A stretch of DNA of 64,000 nucleotides from Crenobacter oryzisoli (GTDB lineage: Bacteria; Pseudomonadota; Gammaproteobacteria; Burkholderiales; Chromobacteriaceae). The position numbers and the translations under genes were made by a program. Under the pieces are notes generated by a model. That model worked only from the letters and a program-made list of their open reading frames with translations. It did no database searches and was not told the DNA's origin. The DNA lies in contig NZ_JAUEDK010000002.1 of NCBI RefSeq assembly GCF_030385785.1, positions 124,001-188,000 of the forward strand. The letters run 5' to 3'. This document shows, piece by piece, positions 12,763-19,413 of this stretch. The stretch's first letter is position 1; each line of letters starts with the position of its first letter.

Positions 12763-12794
12763 GAAAAAGCCCGGTCGACAGCCGGGCTTTTTTC
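12763..12794 (+). terminator. Terminator after phaB
   Basis: AAAAAGCCCGG and CCGGGCTTTT arms around a seven-base loop, ending in a run of seven T residues. Confidence 0.92.
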
Positions 12795-16604: not shown

Positions 16605-17786
16605 ATGCATCGATATGCACCTGAATTCAGCCGAACACCCATGAACCCGCCCTTCTCGCCCCCGGACACCCCAGGCCCTGTCAAATCTACCGAGCCCCAC
16701 CTCATCGAACCTCGCCCGCTCATCGCCGCACGCAGCGACGAGGAACAGATCCTGACCTGGCTTGCCGAGCACACTGACAGCCCACGCACCCAGGCCAGCT
16801 ACCGCAAGGAAGCCGAGCGCCTTATGCTGTGGCTATACCCCCGGCAACTCAGCCTCGCTCAGCTTAGCCGCGAGGACGTGCTGGCCTATGAACGCTTCTT
16901 GCAGAATCCGCCGGCCGAATGGGTCGGCCCGGCACGGCCTCGCCACCACCCCGATTGGAGACCACTGACCGGCCCGCTGTCGCCCAATAGCATTCGCCAT
17001 GCGATGACGGTGCTCGGCGCTCTGTACGGCTACCTGATCGACGCTGGCGTCCTGCGCGGCAACCCGTTTCGCCTAGTGAAAAAACGCCGCTCCAACGGCA
17101 CTGCCAAACATCTAGGCGTGGAGCGCTTTCTCGACAATGCGAGCTGGCAACGGGTGCTGGACGAAATCGACCAACTCCCCAGAGACACGCCGCGCCAACA
17201 AGAACACGCCACCCGCGCCGAATGGCTGTTCACCCTGCTTTACCTGACCGGCGCCCGACGCAGCGAAATTGCACAGGCGAGGATGGGGGACTGCTTCGAG
17301 CGGCGTGGCCGCTGGTGGTGGCGCGTCTACGGCAAGGGCGGCAGCGTCGCCGACGTGCCGGTTGGCGAAGAACTGTTATTGGCGCTGACGCGATACCGGC
17401 GGCAGCTTGGCCTGCCGGAACACCCCCACCCTGGCGAAGAGAGCCCGCTGGTGGGGCGCCTCACCGGGGACAGCGAGAAGCGCCTAGAGCCGCTGTCGGA
17501 CAAAGCCATCTACCTGGTCGTGCGCGAGGTACTTCGCCGCACAGCCACACGCAGCGACGACCCAGCCATCCGACAGGTACTCGAATCGGCCAGCACCCAC
17601 TGGCTGCGCCATACCGCAGCCAGCCACCAGCTCGACGCCGGCGTGCCACTACTGATGGTCAGCCAAAACCTACGGCACGCCAGCATCCAGACCACACGAC
17701 GCTATCTGCACAGCGAGGACGACGCCCGCCACGCGGAGACCGGTCGACACAGCATGACGCGACGCAACAAGCCGGATTCGTTATGA
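16605..17786 (+). CDS. Tyrosine-type recombinase/integrase
   Basis: 393 residues. A proline-rich N-terminal tail (1-40) precedes a core-binding domain (about 45-150) and a catalytic domain with Arg218 (LTGARRSE), Lys244 (YGKGG), His332-x-x-Arg335 (HWLRHT), His358 (LRHASIQTT) and Tyr367. All catalytic residues are present, so it should be active. It is longer than XerC/XerD. There is no tRNA, excisionase or phage gene beside it, and chaA begins 31 bases downstream, so it is not an ordinary integrated island. Start may be 16605 or an internal ATG at 16641; neither has a strong ribosome site. It is the divergent partner of the KfrA-like gene. Confidence 0.85.
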   Translation: MHRYAPEFSRTPMNPPFSPPDTPGPVKSTEPHLIEPRPLIAARSDEEQILTWLAEHTDSPRTQASYRKEAERLMLWLYPRQLSLAQLSREDVLAYERFLQNPPAEWVGPARPRHHPDWRPLTGPLSPNSIRHAMTVLGALYGYLIDAGVLRGNPFRLVKKRRSNGTAKHLGVERFLDNASWQRVLDEIDQLPRDTPRQQEHATRAEWLFTLLYLTGARRSEIAQARMGDCFERRGRWWWRVYGKGGSVADVPVGEELLLALTRYRRQLGLPEHPHPGEESPLVGRLTGDSEKRLEPLSDKAIYLVVREVLRRTATRSDDPAIRQVLESASTHWLRHTAASHQLDAGVPLLMVSQNLRHASIQTTRRYLHSEDDARHAETGRHSMTRRNKPDSL

Positions 17787-17817: not shown

Positions 17818-18900
17818 ATGCCATTGCTGAAACAAGAAAAAAGCCTGTTGTTCGCCGCGCTGATCGCCGGCGCCGGATTTGCCCTGGAACATTCTCTACT
17901 GGAAGGTGGCCGACTACTGGCTGGCGCCTGCGCCCTCGCCCTCTTGGCGGTGATCATCGGCGTTGCACTACGCGTGGCTCACCATGCCGAAATGCTGGCC
18001 GAAAAACTCGGCGAGCCGTACGGCACAATGATTCTGACGCTGGCTGCCGTGGCGGTCGAAGTGGTGATTCTGGCAATCATGATGCTGGCCGGTGGTAGTC
18101 CGACACTGGCACGCGACACGGTATACTCGGCGCTGATGCTGGATATCAACGGCATTCTCGGCATCGCCGCGATCATCGGTGGCCTGAAACATGGGGAGCA
18201 GCCGTACAACCTGGATTCGGGCAACAGCTATGTATCGATGCTGCTGGTCGCGGTTGGTGTATCGATGTTCGTTCCCGAATTTGTGCCGCACGACAAATGG
18301 CAGGCGTTCTCTGCATTCAACATCGTGGCGATGCTGGTGCTATATGGACTGTTCCTGAAGATGCAGACCGGCCGTCACAGCTATTTCTTCAGCTACAGCC
18401 AGCCCAACAAGGCGCATGACGAGGGCGAGCACGACGCAGCCACAATCCGCACCGGCCGCCACGCCGGCCTGCTGTTGGCGAGCATCGTACTGATCGGCGT
18501 ACTGTCCGAACTGATGGCCGCCTTCCTCGGCAAGGGTCTGGAAGGCAGCGGCCTGCCGGCCATCATCCCGGCCATCGTCGTCGCGCTGATCTCGGCCAGC
18601 CCGGAGATCCTCACCGCAATGCGCGCTGCGCTCGATAATCGGATGCAGGCGGTGCTGAACATCGCGCTCGGCGCCTCGCTCGCCACCGTGGTGCTAACCA
18701 TCCCGGTGATCGAGGGCATCGCGCTTTACACCGGTCAGCCGATCGAGATGGGCATGACGCCAATCCAGACCACGCTGATGCTGCTGACCCTGCTGGTCGC
18801 CTCGATCAATCTGAACGACGGCGAGACCAACGCAATCGAAGGCTATACGCACGCAGCCCTGTTCGCGACCTTCCTGTTTCTATCCGGCATCGGACTGTAG
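17818..18900 (+). CDS. chaA: Calcium/cation:proton antiporter ChaA
   Basis: 360 residues with about eleven hydrophobic segments. It contains the two repeated CaCA-type alpha motifs, around EVVILAIMM/ARDTVYSALM and in the second half ALISASPEILTAMRAAL. A charged histidine-containing loop (HDEGEHD) separates the halves, as in ChaA. The protein exports calcium, sodium or potassium in exchange for protons across the inner membrane, supporting alkaline and salt tolerance. It follows the recombinase closely. Its original terminator has been split by a MITE (see 18931-19088). Confidence 0.9.
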   Translation: MPLLKQEKSLLFAALIAGAGFALEHSLLEGGRLLAGACALALLAVIIGVALRVAHHAEMLAEKLGEPYGTMILTLAAVAVEVVILAIMMLAGGSPTLARDTVYSALMLDINGILGIAAIIGGLKHGEQPYNLDSGNSYVSMLLVAVGVSMFVPEFVPHDKWQAFSAFNIVAMLVLYGLFLKMQTGRHSYFFSYSQPNKAHDEGEHDAATIRTGRHAGLLLASIVLIGVLSELMAAFLGKGLEGSGLPAIIPAIVVALISASPEILTAMRAALDNRMQAVLNIALGASLATVVLTIPVIEGIALYTGQPIEMGMTPIQTTLMLLTLLVASINLNDGETNAIEGYTHAALFATFLFLSGIGL

Positions 18901-18946
18901 CGCCCGCCCCGGCAGACAACCAAAGACAAAGGGCACCCTATGGGTG

Positions 18947-19068
18947 TAATGCCGTTCACTTAAGCCGTTCAGTCCGGATTTTAGCTTCGAAGAACGCTTG
19001 GAAGTAACAAAAAAGCACCGTTTTTCCACCTTGGTGGGCGGTGCTTTTTCCTTAAGTGAACGGCATTA
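18947..19068. mobile_element. 122-bp MITE with 18-bp terminal inverted repeats
   Basis: The ends TAATGCCGTTCACTTAAG (18947-18964) and its exact complement (19051-19068) form an 18-bp perfect terminal inverted repeat. The element is flanked by the 12-bp direct repeat ACCCTATGGGTG (18935-18946 and 19069-19080), a target duplication of the length made by IS4-group transposases (from memory of that family). It carries no open reading frame. Inside, AAAAAGCACCG/CGGTGCTTTTT arms around a CCACC-TT-GGTGG hairpin (19010-19049) form a terminator-like structure readable on both strands. It is best read as an internally deleted IS that kept its ends and transposase terminator. Confidence 0.88.
19010..19049. 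terminator. Terminator-like hairpin inside the MITE
   Basis: An 11-bp outer stem AAAAAGCACCG/CGGTGCTTTTT encloses a second 5-bp hairpin. T runs on both strands allow it to act in either direction, which may replace the terminator the insertion broke. Confidence 0.72.
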
Positions 19069-19116
19069 ACCCTATGGGTGCCCTTTTCTATCTGAAACGC
19101 CACACGGCAAACCGGT

Positions 19117-19413
19117 TCAGAACAGCTCGCCGGTGCGCCCCGTCTGTGATTTGCACGCGATCACCAGCGCACGGTTAATCGCTTCCTTCTTGCTGACACC
19201 CCACCACTCGATCATCTTTTCGAGCGATTTCTGCGCCTCGCGCGACAACTCGACCGTCAGCGACAACTCCTGTAGGCGCGCTCGACGCAACGCCCGGCTA
19301 CGCCGCTTACGCTCGGCCACCGTCATCGCCTGCTCGCCCAGCGGCTTGCGACCGGGCTTTTTCTTGACACCGCCAATCAGGTCGAAAGTGTAATGGTCGC
19401 AGGGGTCTCGCAT
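19117..19413 (-). CDS. Small basic protein, ribbon-helix-helix-like
   Basis: 98 residues. The first half is very basic (KKKPGRKPLGEQ, then AERKRRSRALRRARLQEL). The second half reads LTVELSREAQKSLEKMIEWW then GVSKKEAINRALVIAC, a strand followed by two helices, as in ribbon-helix-helix DNA-binding proteins such as MetJ/Arc relatives. It probably binds DNA as a dimer; the target is unknown. It is convergent with chaA, with the MITE-split terminator between them, and divergent from lysP, so it is a candidate regulator of lysP by position only. Confidence 0.7.
   Translation of the reverse strand: MRDPCDHYTFDLIGGVKKKPGRKPLGEQAMTVAERKRRSRALRRARLQELSLTVELSREAQKSLEKMIEWWGVSKKEAINRALVIACKSQTGRTGELF

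Follow-up and report, generated by a model that had tools for sequence, protein, structure and literature searches.

The insertion locus

In the window, by which we mean the whole 64-kb stretch of Crenobacter oryzisoli DNA analysed here, a gene for a ChaA-like calcium/sodium-proton exchanger and a convergent open reading frame (ORF) share a bidirectional terminator that has been split by a MITE (Table 1). The exchanger scores above the Pfam cut-off for Na_Ca_ex, whereas the caca2 and ChaA models both score below their curated cut-offs; the first-pass annotation, which named the gene chaA, was therefore right about the family, and "ChaA-like" is the safer label. The convergent ORF found no match in a Pfam search. 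Just upstream of the exchanger gene, at window positions 16605-17786, lies a tyrosine-recombinase ORF (Phage_integrase).

Table 1 Features at the insertion site, in window coordinates.
Feature	Position	Strand	Basis or remark
ChaA-like calcium/sodium-proton exchanger gene	17818..18900	+	ORF; Pfam Na_Ca_ex, E 4.6e-25; 3′ end served by the split terminator
Left outer stem half of the ancestral bidirectional terminator, AAAGGGC	18928..18934	.	Sequence; intact at the empty site of congener G001
Target-site duplication, copy 1, ACCCTATGGGTG, centre of the old hairpin	18935..18946	.	
MITE, 122 bp, with the build of an IS4-family IS left-end module	18947..19068	+	23 full copies in the genome
Left terminal inverted repeat, TAATGCCGTTCACTTAAG	18947..18964	+	
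Internal bidirectional intrinsic-terminator-like hairpin	19009..19049	.	Folding; diverged copies carry a related hairpin in this position
Right terminal inverted repeat, 18 bp	19051..19068	-	
Target-site duplication, copy 2	19069..19080	.	
Right outer stem half and T tract of the ancestral terminator, CCCTTTT	19081..19087	.	Sequence; G001
Convergent ORF, 98 aa	19117..19413	-	Shares the terminator with the ChaA-like gene

The anatomy that the first-pass annotation had described from the letters alone is borne out throughout. The terminal inverted repeats (TIRs) are 18 bp long and perfect, the flanking duplication of 12 bp is exact, and removal of the element together with one duplicate leaves AAAGGGCACCCTATGGGTGCCCTTT between the convergent genes, a perfect hairpin with an 11-bp stem and a 3-nt loop; the stretch restored in this way folds at -21.5 kcal/mol. 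The interior of the element reads AAAAAAGCACCG...CGGTGCTTTTT, a bidirectional terminator-like hairpin whose 11-bp stem (AAAAAGCACCG/CGGTGCTTTTT) is accompanied by a T run on each strand. Folding gives -20.9 and -23.4 kcal/mol for the two strands, and on both of them a GC-rich hairpin is followed by 5-6 T, as in an intrinsic terminator. The insertion has split the host hairpin, as described, but the old signal has not been fully erased, and the left duplicate still makes a short minus-strand hairpin with a CCCTTT tail. A scan of positions 18800-19200 returned two terminator-like sites against 0.5 expected, which are the inner part of the internal hairpin and the minus-strand remnant of the old terminator, and found no sigma-70 promoter-like site.

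With its length of 122 bp, its perfect TIRs and target duplications, its multiple copies and no transposase of its own, the element has the properties of a MITE. A class C group II intron was considered and ruled out, as an element of 122 bp with TIRs and duplications lacks the intron RNA and reverse transcriptase that define such an intron; an Rfam search of positions 18700-19300 matched nothing up to E 1.

A congener, G001, gave no match to the 122-bp element in a genome search, and its counterpart of the window site is empty: it reads AAAGGGCACCCTAGGGTGCCCTTT, with the terminator intact and the same neighbours on either side. The terminators at the sites of two further copies (L013 and L020) are intact in G001 as well, which makes three of the four sites searched; the flanks of the fourth copy (L012) have homologues in G001, and this site was not counted as intact. 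Whether relatives without the element have the joined terminator had been named in the first-pass annotation as a test that could overturn its reading, and in G001 the terminator is joined.

Copies and target choice

The genome that contains the window (G000; 4.93 Mb in 117 contigs) has 25 matches to the element, comprising 23 full copies and two partial ones near contig ends. Full copies are 99-100% alike; six carry a single difference from the query and 17 are identical to it over all 122 bp, which implies a recent spread. Duplications of 10-13 bp are exact in 22/23 full copies, the remaining one (L018) having a single mismatch, and they measure 12 bp in twelve cases (L018 being counted here), 11 bp in nine, and 10 bp and 13 bp in one each. 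Matches to the terminator half only (e.g., L064, L221 and L228) may be unrelated terminators and were left out of the copy count. With 23 full copies and their duplications, the arrangement in the window is confirmed as real and not a product of chance.

Target sites were scored with a script that requires a hairpin centred on the duplication and a flank rich in A or T; random positions drawn from these loci served as controls. A terminator-like hairpin was found at 22 of the 23 copies, compared to 1540/46000 random positions (3.3%). Site L002 is a weak pass that has no clean T tract; L017 fails the script, yet AAAAAAAGCGG...CCGCTTTTA is visible there by eye. Counting from the duplication, A occupies positions -7, -6 and -5 in 21/23, 22/23 and 22/23 copies, and T occupies positions +4 and +5 (the fifth and sixth bases past the duplication) in 23/23 and 23/23. 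The hairpin axis falls within 1 nt of the centre of the duplication in 21/23 copies, a count that includes L017, where the axis is placed on 2 pairs only. According to a crude ORF call, 17 of the sites lie outside ORFs of at least 90 aa (9 between convergent, 7 between tandem and 1 between divergent ORFs), and the six others lie inside such ORFs, which may be spurious in GC-rich DNA. Across G000, an A tract and an in-register hairpin are present at 55 of 63 distinct flanks versus 2.7% of controls, some elements supplying two flanks, and the right ends of IS copies have both in 5/5 cases.

The A and T arms would not by themselves account for 22 of 23: non-coding AAA-N18-21-TTT sites in the 64-kb window coincide with a hairpin in three of nine instances, a small sample in which one of the three is the element's own target. 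The window also holds two unoccupied terminator-like hairpins with A/T arms of the kind apparently favoured by the transposase, at 12764-12790 and, as AAAAATGGCACCCTCGGGTGCCATTT, at about 39740 (39606 in numbering without the element).

In Chromobacterium amazonense (G067), whose genus shares a family with the organism of the window, at least 14 of 26 candidates are full copies, and the 14 that were scored all sit on terminators; some of the duplications in this genome are imperfect. The first-pass annotation had proposed that the element targets terminators, and had set beforehand, as a possible refutation, that other copies might show neither duplications nor enrichment at terminators. Both are found, and on these site counts a preference of the element for terminators appears well supported.

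Target sites of E. coli IS4

The inverted-repeat ends in G000 resemble those of E. coli IS4. From 2,739 records of that element, with 5,360 places in all, we examined 14 matches picked by hand together with the K-12 copy, which represent nine distinct loci and are not a random sample. By eye, six of these nine sites are terminators (at glgP, pdxK/crr, bamD, a cold-shock gene, adhE and fumB), and E. coli IS4 seems to home to terminators too. The remaining three sites (a 2Fe-2S gene, yicI and the K-12 insG site) are no terminators, but by eye each of them keeps A and T arms. An IS4 insertion in the pheST attenuator was reportedly described in 1984.

These sites bear on two other explanations of the target pattern. 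One is survivorship, in which insertion would be wide and only the copies in terminators would persist, insertions into genes and promoters having been lost. Insertions into terminators probably do the least harm, and the imperfect duplications of C. amazonense point to copies of an age at which selection could have acted; the identity of 17 of the 23 G000 copies nevertheless implies recent spread, and still their A/T register is fixed within a base. By eye, A and T arms are also present at the K-12 site of E. coli IS4 and at its two sites inside genes. We consider this account very improbable. The second explanation is coupled to transcription: the transposase would be drawn to terminating RNA polymerase, to the nascent hairpin or to supercoiled cruciforms, and not to a DNA sequence. 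In its favour, the duplication is centred on the hairpin axis, and palindromes do matter beyond the arms (3/9 arm-bearing sites are hairpins, against 22/23 real sites). The in-gene E. coli IS4 insertions, however, retain their A/T arms without any terminator, which fits recognition of DNA, possibly still in cruciform form. We regard coupling to transcription as unlikely, if less so than survivorship.

Candidate parent IS and probable origin of the MITE

A search of G000 for the inverted repeat, allowing up to three mismatches, gave 94 matches: 48 ends of MITE copies, 3 with three mismatches and about 43 others. We read 23 of these others, and they are the ends of a resident IS whose left end is TAATGCCGTTCACTTAAGCAAGTGAACGGCATTTTTC and whose right end is TAATGCCGTTCACTTAGC or its -AAC variant. 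The ends of the MITE match those of this autonomous element (TAATGCCGTTCACTTAAG / TAATGCCGTTCACTTAGC), so that an IS with the same ends, which the first-pass annotation had suggested looking for, does exist in the form of IS4-family elements resident in the same genome; pieces of the resident IS ORF match Nterm_IS4 and DDE_Tnp_1. A 634-bp internal-deletion derivative of the resident IS (L186:1703-2336, i.e., G000:C35:62202-62835) accounts for one pair of the ends read, lies inside a terminator with an 11-bp duplication and represents a second non-autonomous form. Among the resident IS left ends read in G000, none carries the 122-bp module; they have a short form instead, and this form, too, folds into a hairpin followed by T residues (-20.7 kcal/mol).

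An intact IS is present in C. amazonense. It is 1,497 bp long, is inserted in a terminator with a 10-bp duplication, and encodes a 434-aa transposase that scores 258.5 bits with NF033592 (cut-off 115); the Y(2)R(3)E(6)K signature, YQERWRIETSYRELK, can be made out by eye in the IS transposase ORF. The duplications of this IS and of the 634-bp derivative (10 and 11 bp) are about one helix turn long, as in the IS4 family. The first 122 bp of the C. amazonense IS are a MITE, consisting of the inverted repeat, the terminator and an inverted copy of the repeat, and differ from a free MITE in the same species (L115) in the last base only. The MITE of the window has the same build in a diverged form and is 74% identical to the C. 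piscinae version. On the simplest reading, the inverted copy inside the left end would act as a second end, so that the module could move alone; alternatively, gene conversion may have put a MITE into the IS end. A split MITE copy in G075 (L263:139-1641) was examined as a candidate parent IS and rejected, as Pfam identifies an IS110-family transposase within it; a split copy in G000 (C2/C116; L025:466-494 and L024:123-219) likewise looks by eye like an IS110-family insertion.

Terminator-like hairpins at the ends are not confined to these two species. Among the matches listed across genera, 105 ends extend far enough to be judged, and at 70 of them the repeat has an inverted copy beside it with a T run behind; E. 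coli IS4 shows a comparable hairpin and T run at its right end (-18.7 kcal/mol). The hairpin probably sits at different ends in different lineages, since in the other genera with a transposase match the ORF reads towards the scanned end, as that of E. coli IS4 does.

Same-ended elements in other genera

The 18-bp end was searched across 84,980 species and gave at least 109 stretches. Among the matches listed, an A tract together with an in-register hairpin is present at 80 of 114 distinct flanks versus 4.3% of 10586 controls, some elements supplying two flanks; taken separately, the A tract is found at 104/114 flanks (26.7% of controls) and the hairpin at 88/114 (21.2%). From 57 ORFs listed beside such ends, 23 were picked and scanned. 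Ten match DDE_Tnp_1, four of them Nterm_IS4 as well, and all ten read towards the end; they come from Colwellia, Psychromonas, Thaumasiovibrio (two), Shewanella (two), Psychrobium, Alteromonas and Vibrio (two). The other half of the 20 scanned ORFs that read towards the end are host genes or had no match, with no transposase among them, and the three that read away from it gave no transposase match. Judged by their sequences, same-ended elements in many genera behave alike, some of them with IS4-type transposases.

Small elements of 84-198 bp with the same inverted ends also occur in other genera and carry unrelated palindromic repeats (L173:2150-2325, L107:6452-6649, L096:5708-5803, L104:5744-5827, L135:1299-1471, L153:1207-1390 and L161:5565-5705, as well as L078, L088, L094 and L143); several of their flanks resemble split terminators. 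The palindromic repeat in the small element of Pseudomonas guariconensis is one that we take to be REP-like. A relative of the MITE in G068 (L216:1501-1623) has inverted ends with the CAGTCAGTTAAG variant, and its terminator stem shows a matching replacement of G-C by A-T.

Fate of the internal terminator

In four species of a related genus (g6), namely G014, G034, G025 and G020, one and the same 3′ end is served by a terminator derived from the element, with an eroded inverted repeat behind it; in the first three of them, the eroded repeat is followed in turn by GGCCGGTGCGC(A/G)GTTT, an apparent remnant of the old terminator. The inner stem of G025 is different and still folds, at -23.6 kcal/mol. 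In the sister species G030, G062, G063 and G061, a plain terminator, AAAAAACCGGGC...GCCCGGTTTTTT, occupies that 3′ end, G006 has neither terminator there, and G064, a genome that is 61% complete, gave no match. This comparison supports a history in which the host terminator of the g6 clade would have been replaced, and the replacement retained after the element decayed.

The same observation bears on whether the internal terminator is a by-product of transposon biology. It may be nothing but an insulator that guards the IS end against outside transcription; the MITE would then retain the hairpin by virtue of being an end module, with no role for host benefit. Several facts agree with this: the 70 of 105 ends noted above, among the matches listed, carry a hairpin terminator that reads into the element, the short left end of the resident IS is such a hairpin too, E. 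coli IS4 bears one on its right, and the transposase ORFs of several other genera likewise read towards the repeat end. The decayed copy in the four g6 species, however, has kept its hairpin (with the different stem in G025) while the repeats and the old half eroded, which suggests retention at the level of the host. We regard the by-product explanation as a real possibility, though one that we would not bet on.

We also looked for covariation in the internal stem, for which 17 distinct cores of 29 collected were aligned. Double changes occur at 3/15 pairs and in 4/250 cells, values that 96 and 62 of 500 shuffles reach, respectively; as this is not significant, covariation was not used as evidence. 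Conservation of the stem is in part ascertained, because the 17 cores were gathered with a pattern that requires most of it.

Discussion

The explanation that we favour, and hold to be likely, is that an IS4-family transposase mobilises the MITE into terminators, that the MITE has the build of an IS left end, and that its own terminator replaces the one it splits. The MITE, in short, looks like a mobile terminator module. The features on which this explanation draws are visible in the sequences themselves, namely the copy number, the duplications, the target register, the empty sites, an IS with the end module and a persistent element-derived terminator. The transposase of the resident IS would mobilise a MITE that is built as an IS left-end module, with an outer inverted repeat, an intrinsic terminator and an inverted repeat copy. 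The target of this transposase would be approximately AAA-N4-(10-13 bp duplicated)-N4-TT, i.e., an A-tract, a GC-rich palindrome and a T-tract, which bidirectional intrinsic terminators would supply. Insertion would split the host hairpin, and RNA polymerase arriving from either side would first meet the element's own complete hairpin and T tract; as this hairpin is the first complete one met from both directions, termination should be replaced and not lost. From these features we infer that the MITE descends from an IS end and is mobilised in trans by the resident transposase, that its hairpin terminates transcription in vivo, and that this has a fitness consequence, a benefit to the host.

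A broader proposal is that proteobacteria harbour a widespread class of terminator-homing DNA transposons that has gone unrecognised and is made up of IS4-type transposons and their MITEs. Over evolution these would remodel terminators, leave domesticated ones behind and, with the same ends, move unrelated small repeats, including REP-like ones. With a terminator within or next to one repeat end, each insertion would swap a host terminator for a transposon-borne one. To us the odds of this broader proposal seem about even.

Target preferences of mobile elements have been described before. The target of IS231A is GGG-N5-CCC. Strong arm specificity is reported for some subgroup IS4 elements by De Palmenaer et al. 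(2008; PMC2266710), in whose main text the words "terminator" and "MITE" do not occur; here, the arms match the A and T tracts of terminators. Class C group II introns (Robart et al. 2007, cited in PMC4424553) are likewise mobile and have intrinsic terminators as a target motif. As described in the part of PMC4424553 considered here, they are retroelements that insert after the terminator, whereas the MITE, a DNA transposon, enters and splits the hairpin itself, with duplication of the hairpin centre, and carries in a new hairpin. The pneumococcal SPRITE (PMC3049150) resembles the MITE in being a dispersed repeat that is like a Rho-independent terminator and has been suggested to be co-opted as one; it differs in that no target duplication could be demonstrated for it, and the passages on it considered here name no parent IS and no terminator targeting. 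ISRm22 and the REP-targeting ISs (Tobes and Pareja 2006, PMC1525189) include, as here, an IS4-family member at the axis of a palindrome, but their targets are REP repeats and not terminators, and no replacement signal is described in the portions of that account considered. The MITE-like R0 and R2 repeats of P. fluorescens (PMC2718517) are hairpins biased towards positions between gene tails, with a suspected role as terminators and a proposed mobilisation in trans; unlike for the MITE, insertion into terminators is not described in the sections on them considered here. Among titles and abstract openings, we found neither terminator targeting by an IS4-type element nor a terminator-carrying MITE in terminators, although the subscription literature lies mostly outside this search and absence is unproven.

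"Safe haven" transposons are known, and one that inserts into a regulatory signal while supplying what looks like a functional copy of it would be a particularly clear case of a self-compensating insertion. The favoured explanation also offers a testable account of arm specificity in the subgroup IS4, one that bears on E. coli IS4 itself, and it suggests a route by which intrinsic terminators may be replaced in evolution.
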